35,115 nucleotides of DNA from the NCBI GenBank assembly GCA_022825595.1, contig JAJDWM010000743.1:1-35115 (forward strand), given 5' to 3'. The position numbers and the translations under genes were made by a program. This DNA is from Bryobacterales bacterium. Lineage in GTDB: Bacteria > Acidobacteriota > Terriglobia > Bryobacterales > UBA6623. Position 1 is the first letter of the stretch. Each line of letters opens with the position of its first letter. The notes beneath the pieces are model-generated. The model ran no database searches and had not been told where the DNA came from. It was given only the letters and a program-made list of their open reading frames with translations. Positions 1,051 to 28,245 of the stretch are shown here, in pieces.

Positions 1051-1076
1051 GGGCTGCGGGCCGGGCCCCCAATGCC

Positions 1077-2213
1077 CTACGCGCCCATCATCTCGTCCCA
1101 GGTCACCTCAGCCCGGACGTCCATCGCCATGCGACCGAGGATCGCCGTGAGCGTGCTCTCGGCCCCTCTCACACCGGTGTTTTCGGGCTTGCCCTCGGCA
1201 ATCCGCCTGATGAAGGAGTCCATGGCGTCCAGCGTGTTGCCGCGCTCGGAGGGCTCGAGGACCTCATCGCCCCGACCGCGGTAGTGCCGCCAGTGCAATT
1301 CGGAGGTCTCGATCATTCCGTTCGTCCCGAAGAACTGCTCGTGGACTTCCCGGTAGTTGTTCGAGCCCAAGGTGGAGCCGGCCAGGGAAGCGAGCACGCC
1401 ACCCTCGTACTCATAAACGACGTTGTTGTTGTCGCGCATGTCGCCTGCCCGATCGGCCGTCTTGGAACCGCGGCCGACGGCGCTGAGGGGATGGCCGCCT
1501 AGGAACCAGTTGAGGATGTCGATGCAGTGGACGTTGTTCTCGACGATCAGGTCTCCGGATAGCTCGCTCCAGACATGCCAGCGGCGGATCTTGTCGATGT
1601 CGGTCTCCGGAGGCCGGCGCTCGGACGCCGCGCGCGAGCTTCCCCCCGTCTTGAGAAAGTGGGCGTGGGCCATGCGGATCTCACCGATCGCGCCCGAGTC
1701 GTGGACCCGCTTGGCCTTCAGGTACGTCTTTGCGTAGCGCCTCTGGAAGCCCATCGTGATGTTGAGCCGGCGGTCGGCGGAATCGGAGGCCCTCATGATC
1801 CGCTTGCAGTCCTCGACGCTCACGGCGGCGGGCTTCTCGATGTAGATGTGCTTGCCGGCCCGCACGGCGGCTTCGAAGTGGTCGGCGTGCAGGTGGGGTG
1901 GTGTCGCGATGATGACCGCATCGACGTCTGCGGCTAGGAGTTCGTTCAGGTCGTTGTATTCCTTCGGGGCGTTCGTCCCGATGCGCTGCTTGGCCCGTGC
2001 AATCTGCTCGTCGAACAGGTCGCACATCGCCACCAGCCGCGCATCGGTCGCCTCTAGCAGCGAGCGCGCCAGCGAGCCGCCGCGACCGCCGCATCCGATC
2101 AGGCCAACCGATGGGGCAGAGTTCGCCGCGGCGCCGCGCACGGCCGCGAGGGGTAACGCGATCGCGGCAGTTTGCAGGACCGTCCTGCGGGAAGTCGTGT
2201 TAGATCGTGTCAT
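1077..2213 (-). CDS. Tat-exported Gfo/Idh/MocA family oxidoreductase
   Basis: A 378-residue NAD(P)-dependent oxidoreductase of the Gfo/Idh/MocA family, members of which oxidise or reduce sugars and related polyols. The N-terminus has a twin-arginine signal (S-R-R-T-V-L-Q, then a hydrophobic stretch ending near AAANS), so it is probably exported folded with its cofactor. The Rossmann motif reads G-L-I-G-C-G-G-R-G. The family E-K-P catalytic lysine motif is present (I-Y-I-E-K-P). A C-terminal alpha/beta domain follows, with H-C-I-D-I-L-N-W. The ATG at 2213 has a GAGGTG ribosome site about 8 bases upstream. It lies 27 bases downstream of a second gene of the same family, very likely in one operon. 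The substrate is unknown. Confidence 0.93.
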   Translation of the reverse strand: MTRSNTTSRRTVLQTAAIALPLAAVRGAAANSAPSVGLIGCGGRGGSLARSLLEATDARLVAMCDLFDEQIARAKQRIGTNAPKEYNDLNELLAADVDAVIIATPPHLHADHFEAAVRAGKHIYIEKPAAVSVEDCKRIMRASDSADRRLNITMGFQRRYAKTYLKAKRVHDSGAIGEIRMAHAHFLKTGGSSRAASERRPPETDIDKIRRWHVWSELSGDLIVENNVHCIDILNWFLGGHPLSAVGRGSKTADRAGDMRDNNNVVYEYEGGVLASLAGSTLGSNNYREVHEQFFGTNGMIETSELHWRHYRGRGDEVLEPSERGNTLDAMDSFIRRIAEGKPENTGVRGAESTLTAILGRMAMDVRAEVTWDEMMGA

Positions 2214-2240
2214 TTGTAGTGCACCTCGCGCTGGCCCCTC

Positions 2241-3299
2241 TCAGCCCATCATTTCCGATGCCCGGAGCAGGGTCTCATGGACCAAGAGTTCGTGGTCGTA
2301 GGAGTGCTTGAGCGGGGTTTTGGTCTTGAACGCCCTCGCAAACTCCTCGAAGTCTGCAATGTAGCGCGGCTGTGGCCCGAGGTCGACCGTCTGCCAACCC
2401 TCCTTGTAGGGCCCACGGGCGGTCCGCATGGCGACCTGCATCTTCGAGTGACCGCCGAGCGGCTGGATCATCATGGTCCCATCAGTGCCGATCACCTCGA
2501 ACGAGCGATGATCCCCCGACCCGTACATGCGGGCCGTCGTCGAGACCACGGCCAGACCCCCGTCATATTCGAGGACAGCCAATGTGTTGTCCTTCAGATC
2601 GTCGTCGACGCCCGTGTCGTGGCGCAGCCACGTTTGGACATTCGTGGGCCGACCAGTGAACTCCAGCACTCGGTCGATCATGTGGCCGGCTAGCTCGAAC
2701 ATCGCACCTCCCGGATAGCGCGCCTCCAGATCCCGCTGGGACTGGCCGCGGTCCGAGTTCATAGTGGCGCGCACCAAGTGCACGTGTCCTAGCCAACCCT
2801 GATTGGCAGCCTCGACGGCCGCGTTGATGCCGGCTTGGCCGCGCAAGACCCACCCCTTCTGGAGGAGCAGGTCCTTGGCGCGCGCGGCGTCCACCAGTTC
2901 CTTGAAGGGTTCGTAGGTGTCCCCGGCCGGCTTCTCCAAGTGCAGGTGCTTACCGGCATCGATCACCTTGTGGCCCCACGGGATCGCCTGCCAAGGCTTG
3001 CACTCCACAACCACCAGGTCAATGGTGGTGTCGCTTAGCAGCTCGCTCTCTGAGACCCACGCCTGCCCCTTGAAGAGCGGATCCGCCGCCTGGCGCTTCT
3101 GCACTGCATCGTCGTGCTCGCAGATGCAGATCACCTCGTAGTCGGGCGAATCGATCATAGCCTGGAGTTTTCCTCGCACATGGCTGTGCTGGGTGCCCAG
3201 GACGGCGGCGCGAATCTTGGCGCTCTGAGCCTTGGCGCCGCCTGCCGCGGCTAGTGCGGCAGTCGACGACATCAGAAATGCCCTGCGGTCCAATGACAT
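2241..3299 (-). CDS. Tat-exported Gfo/Idh/MocA family oxidoreductase
   Basis: A 352-residue oxidoreductase of the same family as its downstream neighbour. The start is placed at the ATG at 3299: it begins M-S-L-D-R-R-A-F-L-M, a twin-arginine signal, and has AGAGGGGA about 8 bases upstream. The frame is open further up to 3407, but that extension reads as non-signal, arginine-rich sequence. Key features are A-V-L-G-T-Q-H-S-H in the nucleotide-binding region, L-H-L-E-K-P with the catalytic lysine, and A-G-H-M-I-D-R-V in the catalytic domain. It is the first gene of a two-gene minus-strand operon. Two adjacent exported paralogues could act on successive or alternative sugar substrates; that is inference. 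Confidence 0.92.
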   Translation of the reverse strand: MSLDRRAFLMSSTAALAAAGGAKAQSAKIRAAVLGTQHSHVRGKLQAMIDSPDYEVICICEHDDAVQKRQAADPLFKGQAWVSESELLSDTTIDLVVVECKPWQAIPWGHKVIDAGKHLHLEKPAGDTYEPFKELVDAARAKDLLLQKGWVLRGQAGINAAVEAANQGWLGHVHLVRATMNSDRGQSQRDLEARYPGGAMFELAGHMIDRVLEFTGRPTNVQTWLRHDTGVDDDLKDNTLAVLEYDGGLAVVSTTARMYGSGDHRSFEVIGTDGTMMIQPLGGHSKMQVAMRTARGPYKEGWQTVDLGPQPRYIADFEEFARAFKTKTPLKHSYDHELLVHETLLRASEMMG

Positions 3300-3554
3300 G
3301 GTTCTTTCCCCTCTGGTTCCTTGGCTGCCGCAGTTCGCCAACGGCCGATCGTCGCTGGGAACGTCCTCGCCGGGTCTGCGGCGTTCTTGCTGCGCAAGTC
3401 CATGCATAGTTTGCCACTAAGTGGCGGTCGCGCGCGACCCACGCTCGGGATCCCCGGCAGGCAACAGGCCAAACTTTCGTGACGGTGCCCACATGCACCA
3501 CTCGGGCTGGGCGGCGCGCGCTGTTCCGCAACTCCGGCATGGGTACCATTGGGC
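3300..3554. promoter_or_regulatory. Divergent intergenic region with short dyads
   Basis: The 255-base gap between the oxidoreductase operon (minus) and the hydrolase (plus) should hold both promoters. A 13-base perfect odd palindrome, GCCACT-A-AGTGGC, lies at 3413-3425. A smaller CTTGC-TGC-GCAAG dyad lies at 3386-3398. Either could be an operator, but nothing ties them to a named regulator. A TACCAT hexamer at 3544-3549 sits 5 bases before the hydrolase ATG and could be a -10 for a leaderless transcript. Confidence 0.3.
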
Positions 3555-4838
3555 ATGCCCGTTCACAAGCACGCACGAATCCTGCTGGCAAGCTGCCTAG
3601 TCCTCGCCTCGCTGCTCACCATTCCGCCGGCGGCGGCGCAAGACCTCGTCCCTGCCGTTCCGGAATCGGTCGGGATGTCCAGCGAGCGGCTAAAGCGACT
3701 CGACGACGCCATGCACGAGTACGTCTCGGACGGACGCCTGGCGGGGGCGGTCGTCCTCGTCGCCCGGCGGGGGCGCGTTGTCTATCACAAGGCCTTCGGA
3801 GAGCGGGACATGGAGTCCGGCTCTCCAATGCGAAAGAACGCAATCTTCCGCATTGCGTCACAGACCAAGGCACTGGTAAGCGCGGGGATCCTAGCGCTCC
3901 AAGAGCAGGGGAAACTCCTGATCAGCGATCCTCTCGGCAGATTCCTTCCCGAGTTCAGCAAGACCGGCGTGGCCGTCGCGACAGAGGCCGGCGGATACGA
4001 TGTCGTCCCGGCCAAGAGGCCGATCACGCTTCGGGACCTGCTGACTCACACCGCCGGCATCAGTTACGGCCAAGGGACGGCGAAGGACCGCTGGGAGGCA
4101 GCGGGCGTCCAAGGGTGGTATTTCGCGGACAGGGAGGAGCCCGTGGGCGAGACCATCGCACGCATGGCGTCCCTGCCCTTCGACGCGCAGCCCGGCGAGC
4201 GCTGGGTGTACGGGTACAACACCGACATTCTCGGCGCGGTCGCCGAGCGCGCCAGCGGCAAGCCCTTGGACGTGTTCCTGCGGGAGACGGTCCTGGAGCC
4301 GCTGGACATGAAGGACACGCACTTCTACCTCCCGGAAGGCAAGGCCGGTCGCCTTGCCACGGTCTATTCGGCTACGGAGGACGGGCTCGAACGAGCGCCC
4401 GACCCTGGGCACATGGTCGGGCAGGGGCAGTACCTCAAAGGGCCCCGCGTGAGCTTCTCCGGCGGAGCGGGGCTGCTGTCAACCGCCCGCGACTACTCCC
4501 GCTTCTTGCAGATGATGCTCAACGGAGGGACTCTGGACGGCCAACGCATCCTGAGCCGCAAGACCGTCGAACTCATGGTCTCGGACCATCTCCACGCGAT
4601 CGACTTTCGCCCTGGCCAAGGCTTCGGCCTTGGGTTCTACGTGATCAAGGATGTCGGAGCCCGGGGCACTCCCGGCTCGGTCGGCGAATTCGGCTGGGGC
4701 GGTGCGTACCACTCGACCTATTGGGCGGACCCCCAGGAGGGACTTGTTGTGGCATACCTGACCCAGCTGATCCCCGCGAACGGGCTGGACGACCACTCGA
4801 GGCTGCGGGCGTTGGTCTATCAGGCGATCACCGATTGA
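3555..4838 (+). CDS. Serine beta-lactamase-like hydrolase (class C / EstB-like)
   Basis: A 427-residue exported serine hydrolase of the beta-lactamase/penicillin-binding-protein-like family. This family includes class C beta-lactamases, D-aminopeptidases and EstB-type esterases. The N-terminus is a Sec signal peptide (a hydrophobic run ending near P-A-A-A-Q). The nucleophile motif S-Q-T-K begins at residue 102, matching SxxK. D-L-L-T-H-T-A-G-I and a tyrosine-containing Y-G-Y-N-T-D-I-L-G follow. A W-G-G block (F-G-W-G-G-A-Y) near residue 380 stands where class C enzymes have K-T-G, which favours an esterase or peptidase over a true beta-lactamase. ATG 3555 is preferred over TTG 3549 because a TACCAT -10-like hexamer ends 5 bases before it and no Shine-Dalgarno site is visible. 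It is transcribed divergently from the oxidoreductase operon. Confidence 0.88.
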   Translation: MPVHKHARILLASCLVLASLLTIPPAAAQDLVPAVPESVGMSSERLKRLDDAMHEYVSDGRLAGAVVLVARRGRVVYHKAFGERDMESGSPMRKNAIFRIASQTKALVSAGILALQEQGKLLISDPLGRFLPEFSKTGVAVATEAGGYDVVPAKRPITLRDLLTHTAGISYGQGTAKDRWEAAGVQGWYFADREEPVGETIARMASLPFDAQPGERWVYGYNTDILGAVAERASGKPLDVFLRETVLEPLDMKDTHFYLPEGKAGRLATVYSATEDGLERAPDPGHMVGQGQYLKGPRVSFSGGAGLLSTARDYSRFLQMMLNGGTLDGQRILSRKTVELMVSDHLHAIDFRPGQGFGLGFYVIKDVGARGTPGSVGEFGWGGAYHSTYWADPQEGLVVAYLTQLIPANGLDDHSRLRALVYQAITD

Positions 4839-5301
4839 GGACCCTGACCGTTCGGTTTCGATCGGGGCGCCCCAAGGAATCGCCGTCCGGCGGACTGGGT
4901 CGGCCTTCTCGCCAGAACGATCCGCGAGCGAACCCTAAGGGTGGCGGGCGGGCCCACTCTTGCGCGGGCAACCTGACCGGTGGCCGGAGTGTCGAGCCAG
5001 CAGCCATGCGCTGGCCCAATCAGCATCACTCGCTCCGGACAGTTTCTCGTTGGCATCCTCTCAAGTGCCACGCCAATATGTCGAGTCTCTGGGGCATGCT
5101 CTTGGTCGGCCTCGAGACAACCGGCGAAGCCGTACGGTCGTGGCTCTAGGGCTAGGCGCTCCTCACGGTTCTCTGGCCACCCACCTGCGCCGGCTGGAGT
5201 TGGCATTGACCAGTACCCCTCGTCGACGACCGTGGTCGTGGCCTCTCCGACCTCCAGCGTCCCCAGCGACCGGGTTCTGAGGAGTGCCCAGCGACCCAAC
5301 T
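4839..5301. other. Intergenic stretch without recognisable gene
   Basis: This gap of 463 bases lies between two convergent genes. Several overlapping open frames exist on both strands (for example 4820-5311 minus), but none has recognisable motifs, a ribosome site or a protein-like composition. They look like the chance open frames expected at high G+C. No terminator hairpin with a T-run and no inverted-repeat ends of an insertion sequence were seen. It may be decayed coding DNA. Confidence 0.4.
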
Positions 5302-6468
5302 TCACTTCCAATCGGCGACTTCACGGCATAGGTCGTGGAGGCCGATGGCCTCGACGCTAGCTTCGACCGGATACCTCTCTGTCCCTCGGTGCACCGCGAA
5401 CGCGCGGGTTGGATTGACATCCCGGCGAGCGTTGTGGAATCCTCGGCGCAGCTTTGGAGGCGTGCCACTCTTGATCGCCATCACCCAGATCTGTCCGCTG
5501 GAATGTTCGAGGACAAGATCGATCTCAGCGCCGTCCGCCGTCCGATAGAAGCTCGGCTGAACACGATTCGGCGCAACAGCCAGCACGTTCTCGATCACGA
5601 AACCTTCCCAACTGTCCCCAACAACCGGGTGCCCGAGCAGCGCATCCATGTCCGGCAGGCCCAGCAGGGCGTGAAGCAGGCCGGAGTCTCGGACGAAGAC
5701 CCTAGGGGACCTGGTGAGTCGCTTGCCAACGTTCGCGACATGCGCCGGCAAGCGCCTCACCAAGAGGAGGTCGACTAAGAGATCGATGTAGCGAATTACG
5801 GTCCTGCCGGACACGGACAATGCGCGCGCCAACCGCGACGCGTTCAGAACGTGACCCTGGCTGTGGGCAAGCATCGTCCAAAATCGGCGCAGGGTTGCCG
5901 CCGGAATGCGCGGACCTATTTGGGGGATGTCCCGCTCCAGGTAGGTCCGGATCAGCTCCTCCCGCCAGACGAAGCTTCGATCATCTGAAACTTGCAGGAA
6001 GCTGGGCGGAAAGCCGCCCCGGAGCCAGAGCCTGTCCCCGTCGGTTGGCGGCAACTCCAGAACACCGAAGGGGTTGAGCTCTATGTAGGCGATCCGACCC
6101 GCGAGGCTCTCGCCGGACTGGTTCAGGAGAGCGCCCGATGCGGATCCGGACAAGAGGAAGCGCCCGGCTGTAAGCCCGCGACGCATCCCTTCGTCAATGA
6201 TGCCACGAAGGGGCGCAAACAGCTCGGGAGCCCTCTGCACTTCGTCGATCACAACCGGTCTCTGAGCGTGGATGGAGAGGTGCCTCACCGGATCGGACAG
6301 CCTTCGAAGGTGGTGCGGGTTCTCCAAGTCAAGGTAGACGCTGTCTTGGCTGTCTGCGATGCCACGGACCAAGGTGGTCTTGCCGACCTGACGCGGGCCG
6401 AGTACTGCTACCGCTGGGAAACACTCAAGTCGCTGTCTCACGCTTGGCTCGGTTTGGCGGGGGATCAT
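5302..6468 (-). CDS. AAA_14 ATPase with C-terminal DUF4143 domain
   Basis: A 388-residue, apparently full-length member of the widespread AAA_14 + DUF4143 family. Its cellular role is not established; it is often found in genome-plastic regions. Walker A is G-P-R-Q-V-G-K-T-T-L (residues about 24-33). Walker B is P-V-V-I-D-E-V-Q, followed by the sensor-like F-L-L-S-G-S-A-S. An arginine-rich helix (R-T-Y-L-E-R-D-I-P) precedes a winged-helix-like segment. The DUF4143 nuclease-like fold contains A-E-I-D-L-V-L-E. In that fold the family's usual E-x-K is here A-I-K (V-M-A-I-K-S-G), so the acidic residue is missing. It starts at ATG 6468 without an obvious ribosome site and stands alone between long intergenic stretches. 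Confidence 0.9.
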   Translation of the reverse strand: MIPRQTEPSVRQRLECFPAVAVLGPRQVGKTTLVRGIADSQDSVYLDLENPHHLRRLSDPVRHLSIHAQRPVVIDEVQRAPELFAPLRGIIDEGMRRGLTAGRFLLSGSASGALLNQSGESLAGRIAYIELNPFGVLELPPTDGDRLWLRGGFPPSFLQVSDDRSFVWREELIRTYLERDIPQIGPRIPAATLRRFWTMLAHSQGHVLNASRLARALSVSGRTVIRYIDLLVDLLLVRRLPAHVANVGKRLTRSPRVFVRDSGLLHALLGLPDMDALLGHPVVGDSWEGFVIENVLAVAPNRVQPSFYRTADGAEIDLVLEHSSGQIWVMAIKSGTPPKLRRGFHNARRDVNPTRAFAVHRGTERYPVEASVEAIGLHDLCREVADWK

Positions 6469-7193
6469 TCCCGAAAATCTGACATTGCATGCCGGATTTA
6501 CGGGGTTATCGGCGTTTAGTCCCGAGGACGATGGCCCAATGTCCGGGAGTGGGCCACTGCCTCGTCACGGAGAGTCCTCCCGGATTCGGCTGTACTGTGC
6601 CACAGCGCCGGATCCTGGTGACTGGGGCCCGACGCATCGAGTCCGCCGGAAATCCCGCGTCCGCCCCTCACGCGACGGCCCTGGCGCTCTCGATCGCACA
6701 AGCCCCATACCGCCGCTCCCGCAGTCCGGGCATGTGTAGGCGTACGCCACCTCATAGCCGGGGCTCAAGCACGATCTGAGCGTCTCTCCCGAACAGCGCG
6801 GTCAGCCGCGGGTTCGGGCACGACGAAACGCCTCCTGGCAGCAGCTGCAAGTCCGGGGCTCAGACTCGACAAGCGGCTGTAGAGACCTGATTCACGCCCG
6901 CATCGAACGGCAGCGAAACCGAAGATGCGGCTGGTGTCATCGCGGGAACCGTCACTGCTGCGATCATCGCCCCGGCTCTCAATCGGGCTGATCGAGACCT
7001 GACGAGGCACACACGGCTGGATCGCCAGGCCGTCCAGTGGAGCAACTGGATCGAGTCTTGCCAGATTGCCCGGCCTGTGACATTTCATGCCCGCGATCGG
7101 CGTCCCTGATTGATCCCGGTGTTCGGCGCGAAGCGCCCAGCGGTCCGCCCATCAGCCATCTCCCAGCTTGGATGCCTGTGCTAACCTGCCTGC
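6469..7193. other. Long intergenic region containing kinase-gene debris
   Basis: This 725-base gap separates the ATPase from the FG-GAP lipoprotein. Its only interpretable content is a decayed copy of the 3' end of the LytS-type kinase gene at about 6668-6835. The remaining sequence holds only short, unrecognisable open frames on both strands. A TAACCT hexamer at 7182-7187 lies 6 bases before the lipoprotein GTG. Confidence 0.5.
6668..6835 (-). pseudogene. Degenerate 3' fragment of a LytS-type histidine kinase gene
   Basis: Read on the minus strand, this stretch aligns in frame with the last ~55 codons of the intact kinase gene at 8881-10215. Shared blocks include L-T-x-L-F-G-x-D, Q-x-V-L-E-P-R, G-G-V-R, L-R-E-R and the shared C-terminus A-R-A-V-A followed by TGA at 6668-6670. 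An in-frame TGA at 6752-6754 (plus-strand tca) interrupts it, where the intact gene continues after E-P-R-Q with glycine. Nucleotide similarity is also visible, for example gcgacggccctggc and cgctcccgcagt in both. Upstream of about 6835 the similarity fades and no ATPase N-box or histidine region is found. It is therefore a fragment, not a second kinase. Confidence 0.82.
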
Positions 7194-8420
7194 GTGCGAT
7201 TCCTCTTGGCTGCTCTCCTGCTCGGCAGTACGTTCCTCGGCTGCGATGGGAACTCGTCCGAATCGCAGCCCGTCGCAGCGGGCCCGGTCCAATTTCGAAC
7301 ACACGTCATCGAAGCCGAAATCCCGGGCGGGTACGCCGTGATGACGTCCGACGTCAACAACGACGGGAAACTCGACGTTCTGGGCATGACTTCGCGCATC
7401 AAGGAGTTGCCCTGGTACGAGAACCCCTCTTGGGATCGCCATGTCCTGATCCAGGACATGAACGGTCTGGTGAACATGGCTGCGCATGACGTCGACGGTG
7501 ACGGCATCCCGGAGATCGCGATCGAGAACGAGTTCAGCATGGTTGCCGCCAACAGCAGGGGACTGGTATGGCTCCTCAAGAACGACGGCGACCTCCGCAG
7601 TCCCTGGCGATCCATCCCTGTAGATGAACTGACGACCTCCCACCACCTCGCCTGGGCCGACATCGATGGGGACGGCTCAAAGGAGCTGATCAATGGCCCG
7701 CTGATCGGCGCAGACGCGCTGGCTCCGAAGTACGAAGACAACGTGCCGCTCGTCTACTACCCCGTTCCGGACGCCCTCGACGGCACTTGGGAGAGGCGGC
7801 TCATCGACGACCAGCTCCGAGGTGTTCTGCACCGCGTCCGTGTTGTGCAATGGGACGACGATCCCCGTGAAGAGCTGCTGACTGCCGGATTCGACGGAAT
7901 CACGCTCCACGATCCAACTGGCGAGGGAGAAGAGGTCCGCTGGGAAAACACGCGGCTTTCACGCGGACACAAAGAAGAGCCCAGAACAGCGGGAGCGAGC
8001 GACGTCGCCGTAGGCAGCCTCAACGGTACGCGAATCATCACTTCGGTCGAGCCGTGGCACGGGAATGAGGTCGTCGTGTATACGCAAGACGAGGCCGGCA
8101 CTTGGGAGCGGCAGATCATTTACGACCAGCTCATCGAGGGGCACGAAGTCTGCATGGGTGACTTCAACGGTGACGGACGAGATGACATAGTCGCCGGAGA
8201 CCGCGCTCGGGGCGAGATCGCGGGCTCGCACGTCTTCTACTCACAGGATGACGGCGGGGCCGAATGGTTGCATCAGGATCTCGACCCGATGGGAATGTCC
8301 GCCTCCGGTTGCGAGGTCGCCGACATCAATGGAGACGGGCTTGCGGACATCGTCCAGATCGGCGGTGCGACGAAGAATATCAAGTGGTACGAGAATCTGG
8401 GCCAATCGTCCCAGCCGTAA
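7194..8420 (+). CDS. FG-GAP/VCBS-repeat lipoprotein
   Basis: A 408-residue surface or periplasmic lipoprotein. The N-terminus is a lipoprotein signal with lipobox S-T-F-L-G-C, lipidated Cys at about residue 18. The body is a beta-propeller of FG-GAP/VCBS repeats carrying calcium-binding D-x-D/N-x-D-G loops: D-V-N-N-D-G, D-V-D-G-D-G, D-I-D-G-D-G, D-F-N-G-D-G and D-I-N-G-D-G. Repeated W-Y-E-N segments typical of this propeller group also occur. Such proteins bind carbohydrates or other proteins outside the cell, but no enzymatic site is evident. The GTG start at 7194 is chosen because the signal peptide begins there. There is no Shine-Dalgarno site, and a TAACCT hexamer ends 6 bases upstream, consistent with a leaderless message. 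Confidence 0.9.
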   Translation: MRFLLAALLLGSTFLGCDGNSSESQPVAAGPVQFRTHVIEAEIPGGYAVMTSDVNNDGKLDVLGMTSRIKELPWYENPSWDRHVLIQDMNGLVNMAAHDVDGDGIPEIAIENEFSMVAANSRGLVWLLKNDGDLRSPWRSIPVDELTTSHHLAWADIDGDGSKELINGPLIGADALAPKYEDNVPLVYYPVPDALDGTWERRLIDDQLRGVLHRVRVVQWDDDPREELLTAGFDGITLHDPTGEGEEVRWENTRLSRGHKEEPRTAGASDVAVGSLNGTRIITSVEPWHGNEVVVYTQDEAGTWERQIIYDQLIEGHEVCMGDFNGDGRDDIVAGDRARGEIAGSHVFYSQDDGGAEWLHQDLDPMGMSASGCEVADINGDGLADIVQIGGATKNIKWYENLGQSSQP

Positions 8421-8880
8421 TCCCAGAGGCCAAGGGACAGCGACGTGCAGGGGATCCCGATCTAGGAACGACCTGAACGGCGCCGCCGCGATCCAACTCC
8501 GACCGCGCTCGCACGGACCGGCGAGGCTTAGCCAGGGCCGGGGGGCGACGCTCGCCAACCGGTTGCAGCCGCCAATTCCGTCGAGAAGGCGCCGCGCTTC
8601 GTCAACGCAATCAAGGAGCGCGGTCTCGCGCCCGTCGCTGACGCCAAGGGGATGGGCGGCAATGCGCTTGGGCCGTGGACGAGACCCAAACTGTGGTCGG
8701 GCGGATTGCCGCATCCCACCCGGGATGCCGACGAGTAGCTTCTCGGCGCCGCGGTCAGCGTGTCCCTGAGGGCGACCTCGACCACGGAGATGCACTTACG
8801 GAACGACCTCCGGAGGCCCATCAGGCGGGAGTGAGTGCTAGTATCCCAACCCGCTTCGCGGGAACTCGGGTGCCCAACCC
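8421..8880. other. Intergenic stretch with a startless open frame
   Basis: This 460-base convergent gap separates the FG-GAP gene from the LytS-type kinase. On the plus strand, 8532-8738 is an open frame without a plausible start codon. Its translation looks protein-like (for example F-V-N-A-I-K-E-R-G-L-A-P-V-A-D-A-K, later P-K-L-W-S-G-G-L-P-H-P-T-R), so it may be the decayed tail of a lost gene. I do not recognise the family. A small CCCGC-TTC-GCGGG hairpin near 8849-8862 lies just past the kinase stop but lacks a T-run. Confidence 0.3.
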
Positions 8881-10215
8881 TCAGGCGACGGCCCTGGCCC
8901 TCTCGGGCGCGGCGGTCCCTGCCGCCCGCTCCCGCAGTTCTGGGATCTGCACTCGCGCGCGCACGCCGCCTCCCTGGCGGGGCTCCAGCACGAACTGGAA
9001 ATCCGTCCCGAACAGCACCGTCAGCCTCTCGCGGACGTTGCTGAGGCCGATGCCCTTGCGAAATACCGAAGGAAGATCGTCCACAGGTATGCCCACGCCG
9101 TCGTCCTCGACTTCGACCTGAAGCCGACCCCCGCGCAGCTCGGCACGCAGCACCACCGTGCCGCCTTCCAACTTCGGGCCGATGCCGTGCTTGATGCAGT
9201 TCTCCACGATAGGCTGCAGGATCATGCTCGGGATGCGTGCGGCTGCCGCCTTTTCGTCCACCTCTCTGCGAACTTGTAGCTTGGGCCCATGGCGGACTTG
9301 CTCTATCTGCAGGTAGTCGTCGATGAACGCCAGCTCCTCGCTCAGGGCCACGAAAGCGTCCTGCTTGCGAAGCAGGCGCCGCAGGATTGTGGACAGCCGG
9401 TACACTACGCTGCGCGCCTGATCGGGATCGGTGCGGATCAGGGCCGCCACCGAATTCAGTGTGTTGAACAGGAAGTGCGGGTTCATTTGACGCGTCAGGT
9501 TCATCAGGCGCGCCTCAACCAGCAAGCGCTGCTGGTTCTCGATCTTCCACTCGTTACGGGTGTTGTTCCAGACCTTGAGCGTCAGCCCCGCCCCGACCAA
9601 GGTCGCCAAGTAGCCCAGCAGCAGCGCCGCCAAGCCCGGCTCAGCTCCCTCGTGGAGGTCGAAGACCAGCCCGCGACGGGCGAGTTCGTAGCGAATGGCC
9701 TCCACCATCGCGCAAGCTAGGAGCAGCAAGCTGTTGAAGACGCCCTCCGAATTCGGGATGCGACCGCGTGTCCAGGCCAGCAGCGAAAAGAGGAAGAACG
9801 GCGAGAAGCGCCAGACATCCTCCGGATCCCTGGCCATCTTACGCAGCAGCCCGCCGAGAGCGCCGACTCCCACCAAGAGCGGCAGAGTCCCCCACTCGAA
9901 CGCGGGACCGGCGAACGCCGGAACTGAGATCAGCGCCCCGGCAACTGCGCCAGGAACGAAGCCGCCGACAAGCCCGGACACCAAGGCACCTTCCACGCCC
10001 ACCTCAGCTGCCCGGTAGCCGAGAGCCATGCGAACGAGCGGTCCGCTGGCGAACACCACGCCGAACAGCACCGCCAGCTCGAAGCGCTGCCAGATCGTGC
10101 GGCGCTCGCGCAGGAAGAGGCGCTTGGCGAAGTTGGGCCGCAGCGCGATGCTGGCCATAGACGCCAGAATCGCGACCTTCACGAGGAGGGTTACCAGCAG
10201 GTCGGTGTCGGCCAT
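8881..10215 (-). CDS. LytS/YehU-type membrane histidine kinase
   Basis: A 444-residue sensor kinase. About the first 220 residues are hydrophobic and resemble the 5TM LytS-type (5TMR_LYT) sensor, with segments such as A-V-L-F-G-V-V-F-A-S-G and glycine/alanine-rich helices. The kinase core has the His_kinase motif R-Q-M-N-P-H-F-L-F-N-T-L-N with phospho-acceptor His247. The ATPase domain shows the N-box I-V-E-N-C-I-K-H-G, G1 E-D-D-G-V-G-I and G2 G-I-G-L-S-N-V-R-E-R. This class normally signals to a LytTR response regulator, but none is encoded nearby, so it is an orphan in this window. It starts at ATG 10215 with poor Shine-Dalgarno complementarity, divergent from ribA. A decayed copy of its 3' end lies at 6668-6835. 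Ligand and output are unknown. Confidence 0.93.
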   Translation of the reverse strand: MADTDLLVTLLVKVAILASMASIALRPNFAKRLFLRERRTIWQRFELAVLFGVVFASGPLVRMALGYRAAEVGVEGALVSGLVGGFVPGAVAGALISVPAFAGPAFEWGTLPLLVGVGALGGLLRKMARDPEDVWRFSPFFLFSLLAWTRGRIPNSEGVFNSLLLLACAMVEAIRYELARRGLVFDLHEGAEPGLAALLLGYLATLVGAGLTLKVWNNTRNEWKIENQQRLLVEARLMNLTRQMNPHFLFNTLNSVAALIRTDPDQARSVVYRLSTILRRLLRKQDAFVALSEELAFIDDYLQIEQVRHGPKLQVRREVDEKAAAARIPSMILQPIVENCIKHGIGPKLEGGTVVLRAELRGGRLQVEVEDDGVGIPVDDLPSVFRKGIGLSNVRERLTVLFGTDFQFVLEPRQGGGVRARVQIPELRERAAGTAAPERARAVA

Positions 10216-11792: not shown

Positions 11793-11808
11793 CGCTCAGC
11801 CGACTCCC

Positions 11809-11844
11809 AAAAAAATAAGCGGCGGGGCCGTCGCCCCGCCGCTT
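11809..11844 (-). terminator. Intrinsic terminator downstream of the lactate permease gene
   Basis: A perfect 12-bp stem, aagcggcggggc (11817-11828) with gccccgccgctt (11833-11844), closes a 4-base loop. On the minus strand it is followed by A and seven Ts (11815-11809). It is the clearest Rho-independent terminator in the window. It lies about 170 bases past the permease stop and only about 17 bases before the deacetylase GTG, so it separates two same-strand genes or attenuates read-through into the second. Confidence 0.88.
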
Positions 11845-12017
11845 CGTGCAACCACAGGTTCACAAGGAGAAGGAGTTCGAACCGTAGTTTCTGTCAGCAC
11901 TACCTAAGACGATTGAGCGGGCCGATCTTATGGCAGGATCTGAAACAATTTCCGCACTATTTCTGACCACAGCCCGCACGAGAGCACTGAACTGGGGGCC
12001 AAACCGCCCAAGAGGCC

Positions 12018-13706
12018 TCAGAATCGGTCCGCGAAGACCCCGTAGCTGAACAGTAGGCCGAGCAGGCCCGCAGCGACGACGTAGTAGAGCATGGGGTAGA
12101 TCGTGCGCCGGATCAGCAGACCCTCGCGGCCCACCAGCCCCACCGTGGCGCTGGCGGCCACAACATTGTGGACCGTGATCATGTTGCCGGCCGCGCCGCC
12201 CAAGGCCTGCAGCCCGAGCACGACCAGGTGAGAGACGCCGATCCGGTCCGCGACGCCGTACTGGAAGTGGCTGAACATCAGGTCGCTGACCGTGTTGGAT
12301 CCGGCGACGAAGGCGCCCAGTGCGCCGATCATGGCGGCGAAGAAGGGCCAAGCCTGGCCCGCCACAGCAGCCGCGAACTCGGCGAGCTCAAGCGGCATGC
12401 TCTGCAGCCCCCAGAGGTTCGCGTCCGAGTCGATGAACACGCGCACGAGAGCAACCGCGAAGAGCAGTGCGAAGGCCGGCCCGGCCAGCATGCGCGCGGA
12501 GGCCGACCATGCGCTGCGCACCTGCCGCCCCGACATGCCGTGCAGCAACGCGGTCACCAGACACACGACGAGGAAGATGGTGCCTGGCAGGTAGAGGGGC
12601 TGGATCCCTTGGCTCATGCCCGTTCCCAGGATGTCGGTCCAAGTGAGTTGGATTCCGCTGAGCCAGGCCTTGAACGGCAGCGCTGGCAGCCGCGTGATCA
12701 CAAGCAGCGCCGCCACTAGCACGTATGGCATCCAAGCGCGGGCCAGCGACATCCGGACCCCTTGAGCGACCGGGGCGCCGCTGAACGTGCCCATCCAGCT
12801 CGTGTGCCAGCTCTCGCGGGCCGGAAAGTCCCACGGTTGGACGTCGGAGAGCAGAAAGCCCTTGCGGGCGGCCTGGACGACGATGGCCAGACCGAGCAGG
12901 GCCCCCAACAGCGTCGGGAATTCGGGGCCCAGATAGATTGCCACGGTCAGATAGGGGACCGTGAACGCCAGCCCGGAGAAAATCGCGAACTTCCAGATCC
13001 CGAGACCCTCCTTGAAGGACCGCGAAGCTCCGAAGAACCGCGTGAGCATGCCGCAGATGATCAGCGGGATCAGCGTTCCGACGATCGCGTGCGGTATCGC
13101 CGCGAAGACGCCGATCTGGTAGATGAAGTCTGCGTACGGCAGGCCGATGCCCTCGAGAGCGGACTCGACGTCCGGCACGTTCAGCGATTCAGCCATCCCG
13201 ACCAGGATGGGAGTGCCGACGGCCCCGAAGGTGACCGGTGTGCTCTGGATGATCAGCGTGCACATGACCGCGGCGAGAGCCGGGAACCCGAGCGCCAGGA
13301 GCAGGGGCCCGGCGACCGCAGCCGGCGTGCCGAAGCCAGAGGCGCCTTCGATGAAGGCGCCGAACATCCACGCGACGATGATCAGCTGTACGCGGCGGTC
13401 TTGCGAGACATCCATGAACCCGGCGCGGATGGCAGCCGCAGCGCCGCTCTCGGACAGCGTCTGCAGGAGCAGGATCGCACCGAAGATGATCCACAGCAGC
13501 GAGACGGCGATGATCACGCCGCGGATGGAGGCCGCGGCGACGTGGACGGCGCTGACGTCCCACAGCCACAGGGCCGACGCAGCTGTCATCACATAGGCGA
13601 CGGGCATCGCCCTGGTCGCAGGCCAGCGCAGCACCACAAGGAAGAACATCACCGCCAAGATTGGCGCTAGGGCGATTGCGGCGTGCAGTGCGGAAGCTTC
13701 CGGCAT
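12018..13706 (-). CDS. lctP: L-lactate permease (LctP family)
   Basis: A 562-residue inner-membrane transporter of the LctP family, which takes up lactate (and glycolate in some members) with protons. The protein is hydrophobic throughout with about 13 predicted membrane segments. It carries the family's conserved [13 protein letters not shown], the G-A-V-G-T-P segment and the C-terminal [13 protein letters not shown]. Its length matches the family. It starts at ATG 13706 and is transcribed divergently from the DUF1549/DUF1553 gene across about 117 bases. No lactate dehydrogenase (lld/lut) genes are adjacent. A strong terminator follows the gene. Confidence 0.94.
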
Positions 13707-13823
13707 ATGAGCATCAAGCCTACCCGCGGGTCGCGCGGCATGTCAAGAACTGCGCTGGGGCGAGAGGGCTGTGGCCGACGCAGCGATTGCGCGGGCGCGC
13801 AGGAATGGGCCAAGGTAGAGGGC

Positions 13824-16541
13824 GTGAGGGGAATCGGGTCCTGGTCAGCCGGACTGCTCGCAGCGGCCGCGCTTGCCGCCCCGCAACCATTGCGGGCGGA
13901 CGCGGGGGAGGACTTCTTCGAGCGCCGAATCCGGCCGCTCCTTGCCGAGCAGTGCGCACAGTGCCACAACGAGCAGCTGCTGTCTGCCGGCATCGACATG
14001 CGCCGGCCGGAGACGCTGATCGGCACAGCCGTGATCGCAGGCGACGAGTCCAGCCCCTTGATCCGGGCCGTGCGTTACGAGAGCGCCGTAAAGATGCCGC
14101 CCACCGGCAGGCTGCCCCAAGAGAAGATTCGGCTATTGGTCGATTGGGTGCGCATGGGCGCGCCTTGGCCGGGACACGAGACCGCCGACGGAGAGGACGA
14201 CGGACTCCCAGAGGAGACCGTGCACAGCGACCACTGGGCATTCCAGCCCTTGCGGGATCCGGAACCGCCCGACATCGGCAGTTCCCGGTGGCCGCGCAAC
14301 GGCATTGACCGCTTCGTGCTGGCCCGCCTTCGATCGGCCGGCCTGGATCCCGCGCCGGCAGCGGCACCGCTGACCCTCCTGCGGCGCGCAAGGTACGGCC
14401 TGACAGGCCTGCCGCCCCTCCCGGGCGAGGTCGAGCGCTTCGGGGAGCCGGGCGCTCCGCCAAGCTTCGGGCAGCTCGTCGACGCGCTCCTCGCAACGCC
14501 CCAGTACGGAGAGCGATGGGCCCGCCACTGGCTCGACGTGGCGCGCTTCGCAGACTCCACTGGAGTGGACGAGGACCATCCGTTCGGCAACTCTTGGCGC
14601 TACCGCGACTATGTCGTGCAGGCCTTCAGCGAGGATCTGCCGTTTGACCAGTTCATCCGCGAGCAGGTCGCGGGCGACCTGCTCCCGCCCGCCGCTGGAG
14701 AGCCCGTCAATGCGCGCGGGATCGTGGCGACAGGGTTCCTCGCGGTGGGCCCCATGGCCTTGGCCCAGCGCGACCCCGTGCAGAAGCGCTACGACGTTGT
14801 CGACGAGCAGATCGACACCCTGACGAAGGCCTTTCTGAGCCTGACAGTGGCGTGCGCTCGCTGCCACGACCACAAGTTCGACCCGATCCTGACCTCGGAC
14901 TACTACGCCCTGGCCGGGATCTTTGCCAGCACGCGCACATTCGAGGACTGGCGCAGGAACGGTTCGCGCTACCTCAAAGAGCCCCTGGTCGAAGCAGGGG
15001 AGTACGAGGCCTACAGGCAGCACGCCTCGAAGGTGGACCGGTTGCAGCGCGTGCTGCGCATGGCCCGCCAAGCGGCCGTGATGCGGTATCTGCTCAACGG
15101 TCCGGGCATGCGCATCGCTGAGATGATGCTGGCCGCGGCCCAACCCCTACGGCCGTTCGGACCAGACGCGAAGACCGTCGCATGGCTGCGGACCTACCTC
15201 ACGCCCCGGCCTGTGCCCCGCCCTCACTTGGCGGTCTGGAGAGAGGTCGGCGCTGACCGTGCGCGGGCCGCCGAGCAGTACCAATCAGACCTGCTCGAAA
15301 TCCTGGAAGGGCGAGCCGCGGCAATTGGTAGCTGGGTCGGCAGGGCCTCTGCGGCGCTCGACGCGAGCGATGGAGCGGATCTCCCGGAACTGCCGGTCGA
15401 ACTGCCGACATCTCTGCTGTTCCGCGACCTTGCCGAAGAGGGAGGTCCGCTGTCTGCGGACTTCGAAGATGCACGGCTGCGGCTGGCCCCACCCGATCTC
15501 GCCCTCGCAGAGGGCCTTGAGGCGCGCCTGGCGAGACTGCGCGAGGGGGCGCCCGCAGAGCCGCCCATGGCCAATAGCGTCGCCGATGGCGACGTCGTCC
15601 GGCAGCGAATCTTCCGGCGAGGGCAGCACCGGAGCCCTGCGGCTGCCGTCGAGAGGCGATTCCCCCTCGTGCTGGCCGGAAACGGCCAACCGGAGATCCG
15701 AGAGGGCAGCGGGCGCCGGGAACTGGCCGACTGGATCGCGTCCAAGAGCAACCCTCTCACCGCCCGGGTAATCGTGAACCGCGTTTGGCAGTGGCACTTC
15801 GGCGAGGGCATCGTGCGCACGCCGAACAACTTCGGCACTCGCGGCGAGGAGCCGACCCATCCCCTCCTGCTCGACTGGCTGGCAAGCCGGTTTGTGGCGA
15901 GCGGCTGGTCGATAAAGGCGCTCCAGCGCCTGATCCTCGAATCGGCCACCTACCGGATGGGCAGCGGAGTCTCGGACCATGCACACCGGGTGGACCCCGA
16001 CAACGCGCTGCTGTCGCGCTTCCCCCGCCGAAGAATGTCCATCGAGGAACTGCGGGACAGCTACCTGCACGTCAGCGCACGGCTCGACTCGGCGGTGGGC
16101 GGGGACACCGACCTGGGTTCGGGCAGCCTGCCCGAATTCGAGCGCAACAACCGTCGCATCGATCCGGACACGCACCGGCGGCGCACGCTGTACCTACCGC
16201 TCATGCGCAACAAGCTACCGGCCCTGCTGCGGCTGTTCGACTTCGGCGATGCGACCACCTCTGTCGGAACGCGGTCCTCGACGAACGTCGCGCCGCAAGC
16301 CCTGTACCTGCTGAACAGCGGCTTCGCGGCCGCATCGGCCGCTGGGGTCGCGGGACGGCTGGCCGGCCCGTCCCGGGACAGGGCGGAGATGGCGTACCGA
16401 CTGATCCTCGGTCGGCCCCCGTCGCGAGAGGAGACGTCGCGGGCGGAGCGCTACGTGCGTTCGCGCGGCGGCGGCGAGCAGGGATGGAGCAGCCTGTGCA
16501 AGCTGCTCCTCGCATCGAACGAGTTCCACCACATCGAATGA
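13824..16541 (+). CDS. DUF1549/DUF1553 protein with cytochrome-c-like N-terminus (PSD1 type)
   Basis: A 905-residue exported protein of the planctomycete-type PSCyt1-DUF1549-DUF1553 architecture, whose biochemical role is not established. GTG 13824 is chosen because a Sec signal peptide (W-S-A-G-L-L-A-A-A-A-L ending near L-R-A-D-A) starts there with AAGGTAGAGG just upstream. The longer open frame to 13683 would overlap the permease start. The haem-binding-type C-A-Q-C-H begins at residue 44. DUF1549 contains A-R-H-W-L-D-V-A-R-F-A and a second C-A-R-C-H-D-H-K-F-D-P at residue 344. DUF1553 includes N-R-V-W-Q-W-H-F-G-E-G-I and S-G-W-S-I-K-A-L. It is followed 40 bases later by DUF1501, the usual partner, so the two probably form one complex or pathway. 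Confidence 0.93.
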   Translation: MRGIGSWSAGLLAAAALAAPQPLRADAGEDFFERRIRPLLAEQCAQCHNEQLLSAGIDMRRPETLIGTAVIAGDESSPLIRAVRYESAVKMPPTGRLPQEKIRLLVDWVRMGAPWPGHETADGEDDGLPEETVHSDHWAFQPLRDPEPPDIGSSRWPRNGIDRFVLARLRSAGLDPAPAAAPLTLLRRARYGLTGLPPLPGEVERFGEPGAPPSFGQLVDALLATPQYGERWARHWLDVARFADSTGVDEDHPFGNSWRYRDYVVQAFSEDLPFDQFIREQVAGDLLPPAAGEPVNARGIVATGFLAVGPMALAQRDPVQKRYDVVDEQIDTLTKAFLSLTVACARCHDHKFDPILTSDYYALAGIFASTRTFEDWRRNGSRYLKEPLVEAGEYEAYRQHASKVDRLQRVLRMARQAAVMRYLLNGPGMRIAEMMLAAAQPLRPFGPDAKTVAWLRTYLTPRPVPRPHLAVWREVGADRARAAEQYQSDLLEILEGRAAAIGSWVGRASAALDASDGADLPELPVELPTSLLFRDLAEEGGPLSADFEDARLRLAPPDLALAEGLEARLARLREGAPAEPPMANSVADGDVVRQRIFRRGQHRSPAAAVERRFPLVLAGNGQPEIREGSGRRELADWIASKSNPLTARVIVNRVWQWHFGEGIVRTPNNFGTRGEEPTHPLLLDWLASRFVASGWSIKALQRLILESATYRMGSGVSDHAHRVDPDNALLSRFPRRRMSIEELRDSYLHVSARLDSAVGGDTDLGSGSLPEFERNNRRIDPDTHRRRTLYLPLMRNKLPALLRLFDFGDATTSVGTRSSTNVAPQALYLLNSGFAAASAAGVAGRLAGPSRDRAEMAYRLILGRPPSREETSRAERYVRSRGGGEQGWSSLCKLLLASNEFHHIE

Positions 16542-27430: not shown

Positions 27431-27769
27431 TCAGGAGGAGACTCTGGCCACCGCGGCGTCCCGGCTGCCGAACAGCGGGATGATCTTCTCAAAGCCGCTG
27501 ATCGCAAAGACCTCGCGGATCGGATGTCCCAAGCCGCACATGGCAAAGCGCTTGCCCTGACTCTTGAGGCTCTTGCGGACCAGCAGCACGGCGCGCAGGC
27601 CGGCACTGCTGATGTAGGCGAGACCCTCGCAGTCGACCACCATCCCGCGGTCAGCGCCTCCGGCCAGTCGCATGAGCGTCCGCTCGAATTCCCTGGCATT
27701 CGTGCTGTCCACGCGTGTGCAGGCTTCCGCGATCACCACGTCTCCCGACCGAGTGGTTTCGAGTTCCAT
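27431..27769 (-). CDS. STAS-domain anti-sigma antagonist
   Basis: A 112-residue single STAS domain, the typical size of SpoIIAA/RsbV antagonists. The phosphorylatable serine region is Y-I-S-S-A-G-L-R-A in the loop after the V-V-D-C-E-G-L strand. Such proteins are phosphorylated by RsbW-like kinases, dephosphorylated by SpoIIE-type phosphatases, and when unmodified sequester the kinase. Both enzyme types are encoded in the convergent operon. ATG 27769 has AAGGAG about 9 bases upstream. It is clearly paralogous to the next STAS gene (shared V-V-D-C, I-S-S-A-G-L-R-A, V-F-A-I-x-G-F) and shares a promoter motif with it. Confidence 0.93.
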   Translation of the reverse strand: MELETTRSGDVVIAEACTRVDSTNAREFERTLMRLAGGADRGMVVDCEGLAYISSAGLRAVLLVRKSLKSQGKRFAMCGLGHPIREVFAISGFEKIIPLFGSRDAAVARVSS

Positions 27770-27906: not shown

Positions 27907-28245
27907 TCATCGGCGGATCGCTGCAACTGCCTCCTCGCGGGTGTGATAGGTCGGTATGACCCTGTCGAACCCGGTGATCGCGAACACCCTCTGCACCTGG
28001 CGGTCGAGCTCGCACATGACCAAGGGGGTCTTCCGGCGCGAGAGGGCCCTCGACACGGCCAGCAGGGCCCTCAGCCCCGCGCTGCTGATGTAGGAGAGCT
28101 TCTTGCAGTCAACCACAACACCTTGGTCGCCCTCCCCGACCGAATCCTGAACTGCAACCTGAAACGCAAGGGCGTTCTCGCTGTCAAGCTCCCGCCACGC
28201 TCCGACCGTCAGGATTCCCTGTGTACGATGCGTTGGCAAGTCCAC
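27907..28245 (-). CDS. STAS-domain anti-sigma antagonist, second paralogue
   Basis: A 112-residue single-domain STAS protein with the acceptor-serine region Y-I-S-S-A-G-L-R-A-L after V-V-D-C-K-K-L. Its length and motif order match the adjacent STAS gene, pointing to a tandem duplication; surface residues differ considerably, so the two may have different affinities or targets. GTG 28245 gives an N-terminus that aligns with its paralogue; the ribosome site is weak. A copy of the shared promoter motif lies 42 bases upstream. It is divergent from the oxidoreductase gene at 28353. Confidence 0.92.
   Translation of the reverse strand: MDLPTHRTQGILTVGAWRELDSENALAFQVAVQDSVGEGDQGVVVDCKKLSYISSAGLRALLAVSRALSRRKTPLVMCELDRQVQRVFAITGFDRVIPTYHTREEAVAAIRR

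Follow-up and report, generated by a model that had tools for sequence, protein, structure and literature searches.

We asked why a 35,115-nt stretch of DNA from a Bryobacterales bacterium (hereafter the window, meaning the whole stretch that was analysed) carries a second, damaged version of the end of a sensor kinase gene about 2 kb from the intact gene, and how this fragment arose. Pfam searches over the window identified a sulfatase gene (1-1050, cut by the window edge), two Gfo/Idh/MocA oxidoreductase genes, and genes for a beta-lactamase-family protein, an AAA_14/DUF4143 protein, an FG-GAP protein and the kinase; further genes encoded GTP cyclohydrolase II, YdjC and lactate permease. The kinase scored 87.1 bits for His_kinase (PF06580) and 50.2 bits for HATPase_c, both over the cut-offs, indicating that it is of the LytS type, and 17.8 bits for the 5TM-5TMR_LYT sensor domain, under the cut-off of 24.6. 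Elsewhere in the window, two STAS-domain genes on the minus strand (27431-27769 and 27907-28245) formed a diverged tandem pair with an internal 82-nt repeat of 72% identity. The features around the kinase are as follows.

1053-8880, no strand: derived insertion of about 7.8 kb, flanked by the sulfatase gene (1-1050) and the kinase gene (comparison with congeners)
5302-6468, minus strand: AAA_14/DUF4143 ATPase gene, downstream of the copy (Pfam)
6644-6807, minus strand: kinase-tail copy, about 47 codons, stop and 24 nt (alignment, shuffles, TGA, sister copy)
6808-8856, no strand: segment between the copies, 2049 nt, containing the FG-GAP gene (repeat ends, Pfam)
7194-8420, plus strand: FG-GAP repeat protein gene with orthologues elsewhere in relatives (Pfam, relatives)
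8857-9026, minus strand: source stretch, the intact kinase 3' end and 24 nt after its stop (alignment, shuffles)
8881-10215, minus strand: intact LytS-type sensor histidine kinase gene with His_kinase and HATPase_c domains (Pfam)

A preliminary description had placed a decayed duplicate of the last 55 or so kinase codons at 6668-6835, with an in-frame stop and in the same orientation as the gene, and had named alignment against shuffled sequence as the test that could refute it. Local alignment of 6644-6807 gave a score of 103, far above the 500 dinucleotide shuffles (mean 25.1, maximum 37), so the decayed copy is real. Both copies lie on the minus strand, and in global alignment 124 of 171 columns were identical between 6644-6807 and its source, 8857-9026, with 8 gap columns and a net loss of 6 nt in the copy. 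The 164 bases of the copy comprise about 47 final kinase codons, fewer than first proposed, then the copied stop codon (6668-6670) and 24 nt past it, down to 6644; the in-frame TGA lies at 6752-6754. That is, the earlier span held for 6668-6807 and extends at its low end, whereas 6808-6835 showed no detectable similarity. The two copies start 2213 nt apart and are separated by 2049 nt. When 6808-6930 was compared with the matching kinase stretch, the score was 9.8 against a shuffle mean of 9.9, and neither this flank nor 6510-6643 resembled the matching kinase flanks, either here or in the sister genome described below. Both ends of the repeat are sharp. Beyond the kinase end, 6500-7190 had no other match in the window genome (assembly 87.8% complete). 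Significant similarity to an intact gene, truncation and a disabling change thus coincide in 6644-6807, as in a truncated pseudogene, and we read it from its sequence as a partial duplicate of the kinase 3' end, presumably non-functional.

The surroundings of the copy were also as first described: the AAA_14/DUF4143 gene (minus strand) and the FG-GAP gene (plus strand) flank it, among gene-free spacers of 463, 725 and 460 nt. Kinase orthologues were found in 61 of the 61 genomes searched, its own included, and in some of these the match covered the conserved kinase domain only. The named relatives were mostly metagenome-assembled genomes (MAGs) of Bryobacterales or other Acidobacteria; the nearest, L023 (RHO3_bin_37), matches the kinase of G007 (97%), and G007/L023 is referred to here as the sister genome. 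The sister showed the same layout, the same TGA and the same 6-nt loss in the copy, with an additional 11-nt deletion of its own. In all nine other same-genus genomes (L005-L013), tblastn matches placed the kinase end 17-694 nt from a convergent sulfatase gene. The gap was 17-70 nt in eight of these congeners and 694 nt in G006, where it was filled by a helix-turn-helix ORF (HTH_3; L028, 9356-9715, plus strand) at the same spot as the insertion in the window; in the window and the sister, the gap was about 7.8 kb or more. Seven loci belonging to other genera in the same family (L014-L020, with 1.5-kb flanks) gave no sulfatase match beside the kinase, indicating that the kinase-sulfatase adjacency is a feature of the genus.

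A search of 11 further kinase loci (L024-L034, including nine from congeners) found no comparable tail copy; the tail gave only short weak matches there (one each in L028 and L030, four in L034; E-values 1.9e-4 to 0.004). Among the genomes searched, the copy is confined to the two sisters, and none showed an intermediate state. Since the kinase stands beside the sulfatase gene, with no comparable tail copy, in nine of nine congeners, we regard approximately 1053-8880 as a derived insertion, within which the copy has the FG-GAP gene on one side and the AAA_14 gene on the other. These comparisons fit the earlier proposal that the ATPase and FG-GAP genes came in through a rearrangement; both are missing from the kinase-sulfatase junction in the nine congeners.

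The inserted genes have counterparts at other places. FG-GAP orthologues of 79-83% identity were located elsewhere in eight of the nine congeners, and the ninth, G003, had a 39% homologue only. In G003, the two Gfo genes and the beta-lactamase gene were found together on a 15-kb stretch containing neither kinase nor sulfatase, and G008 carried the Gfo pair together without the beta-lactamase. In G008, G009 and G006, the FG-GAP gene stands next to a 3-keto-disaccharide hydrolase gene; this hydrolase gene lies at a contig start in G007, was not found in the window genome (G000), and left no remnant in 8421-8856. Matches to DUF4143 numbered 12-21 per genome in five same-genus genomes and 1-3 in two from other genera. 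The sister was also about 860 nt longer between the beta-lactamase and AAA_14 genes (window 4839-5301; L081, about 13590-14500), and no clear gene was identified in this extra sequence.

We then considered the age of the copy. In the coding alignment, identity of the copies was 72-77% with the window and sister kinases and no more than 63% with any other kinase; in the core alignment, the values were 71-74% and at most 65%, respectively. Of the post-stop columns that were invariant within each pair, 12 of 14 agreed between copy and kinase. The best tree preferred an origin inside the window/sister lineage. An origin before the split from L005-L010 was not rejected (p-AU 0.185; core alignment 0.271), and an origin before all congeners was barely rejected in the coding alignment (p-AU 0.047) and not rejected in the core alignment (0.226). 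The copy might therefore predate the lineage, as the first of these p-AU values allows, or might have arrived as the kinase of another species on foreign DNA. However, the tree and the identities both favour the window and sister kinases, the C-terminal codons and the 24 nt after the stop are common to the copy and these two kinases only, and the nine congener loci lack a comparable copy; we consider an older or foreign origin improbable.

The preliminary description had offered two histories: duplication of a segment during rearrangement, which fits the data, and loss of a tandem kinase paralogue. In the latter, a full second kinase would have stood here, and the FG-GAP insertion or deletions would have removed its first 88% or so, leaving the tail. 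Whole-gene tandem duplication would also give a copy that includes the 24 nt past the stop, and older kinase remnants could have become unrecognisable because spacer DNA is only about 68% identical between the sisters (0.68-0.69 in 6881-7193 and 8421-8856). Against this, the synteny comparison first proposed found two kinases at this place in no congener, and no kinase sequence was detected beyond the copied stretch of about 165 nt: searches of 6881-7193, 8421-8856 and 4839-5301 found none; the window gave a single marginal score, matched by 6 of 200 shuffles, that the sister failed to reproduce (31 of 200). In addition, of 17 polarised changes on the stem of the copy, 5 were synonymous and 12 non-synonymous, the TGA among them, against a random expectation of 0.68-0.71 non-synonymous. 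These changes are as expected without coding constraint and fit a fragment that was dead at birth or soon after, with 17 changes making this a weak test. Positive support for a lost tandem kinase was thus lacking, and we judge that history unlikely.

One observation is not predicted by a plain scar. Identity between the sisters was 0.84-0.86 over 6510-6880, compared with 0.68-0.69 in the spacers 6881-7193 and 8421-8856; the other spacers ranged from 0.76 to 0.95, except for one 26-nt spacer at 0.54 and, at 0.67, the 24 nt that follow the kinase stop codon. Separately, the spacer at 11793-12017 was 95% identical to the sister, above its surrounding genes, and may hold an unrecognised gene or element. 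The better conservation of 6510-6880 might mean that the copy was taken into use, either as a control region of the AAA_14 gene, whose start lies 176 nt away, downstream and in the same orientation, or as a small plus-strand ORF (6489-6779). The plus-strand frame over 6489-6667 gave a pN/pS of 0.38 (Fisher p 0.012, for one frame of six), but the minus-strand frame with common third positions gave a similar signal, and the 11-nt deletion shifts the plus-strand frame in the sister. The ORF had no Pfam match and no homologue beyond the sister in 100 genomes, apart from a self-match to the antisense strand of the kinase tail and a single weak hit containing two stops. With a weak signal, a frame broken in the sister and no homologues, it was rejected as a real gene. 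A structured RNA was likewise rejected, as Rfam gave no match in the window; the fold z-score was -2.4 for one 412-nt sequence. Reuse of the copy, in which a dead kinase tail would have become a conserved control region, or a small opposite-strand ORF, before the AAA_14/DUF4143 gene and so a working element in one lineage, is, in our estimate, very improbable.

An inverted repeat at 6469-6509 (CCCCGTAAATCCG..CGGATTTACGGGG in the sister) reaches the ATG of the AAA_14/DUF4143 gene. Several homologues of this gene carried different, yet self-complementary, versions of the repeat at the same place. In a self-complementarity test, 11 of 32 loci beat at least 28 of 30 shuffles and many showed nothing; for one of the 11, the start taken was questionable, lying 2 aa before the P-loop. 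The repeat may be an operator or a leader hairpin and is a candidate for either.

With a probability of roughly 0.6, we favour the reading that the copy is a non-functional partial duplicate left by DNA insertion at the kinase 3' end. It builds on the observed repeat and its ends, the layout common to two genomes and the insert-free site in the nine congeners. Before the window genome and its sister diverged, FG-GAP-bearing DNA would have entered the kinase 3' end in their shared ancestor, at a convergent intergenic spot presumably tolerant of insertions. A direct repeat of the kinase end, about 165 nt long, would have resulted on either side of the new 2-kb segment; the kinase would have retained one copy and stayed intact, and the other, which had no start, would have decayed without coding constraint. 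We infer that a single event produced both the duplication and the FG-GAP insertion. Its joining step would have been either insertion with a long target duplication or one crossover involving a circle that bore the tail. As the whole insert is about 7.8 kb, the other genes call for one or more additional events.

We compared the locus with known processes. DNA duplication associated with inversion, a process from the H. pylori literature, was set aside because both copies in the window have the same orientation. The copy resembles an ordinary truncated pseudogene from duplication in its truncation, in-frame stop and parental orientation; unlike such a pseudogene, it is not accompanied by any remnant of the remaining second gene, and no relative carries two copies here. 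Insertion with long target duplication, as described for H. pylori restriction-modification genes (Nobusato et al. 2000; PMC1643837, PMC3031569), offers a gene segment bordered by long direct target repeats with no obvious transposase. Here, too, direct target repeats (6644-6807 and 8857-9026) border 6808-8856, an obvious transposase is lacking, and a single kinase tail lies beside the sulfatase gene in the nine other congeners. In this case, however, an FG-GAP gene forms the cargo, identity between the copies has fallen to about 73%, and further genes were inserted beyond one copy, in contrast to the H. pylori cases as described there. Removing the insert and one repeat would not restore the uninserted order: the AAA_14, beta-lactamase and two Gfo genes remain between the copy and the sulfatase gene, and these require at least one more event. 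The window case therefore falls outside strict membership and appears to work like insertion with long target duplication. Transposed plant genes with flanking direct repeats, for which a circle-integration model was proposed (Woodhouse et al. 2010, PMC2869330), are similar in that, as described, the moved gene lies between direct repeats matching a target site that is often genic. Those cases are from plant genomes, and in our searches no repeat-carrying donor copy was found; circle integration by crossover in the tail could serve as an alternative joining step.

The helix-turn-helix ORF at the same spot in G006/L028 indicates that this convergent intergenic site took insertions more than once. 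The finding alters no view of how kinases or genomes work, and known processes explain it well enough. It provides a two-genome example in which a change of gene order in Bryobacterales leaves partial gene copies behind.
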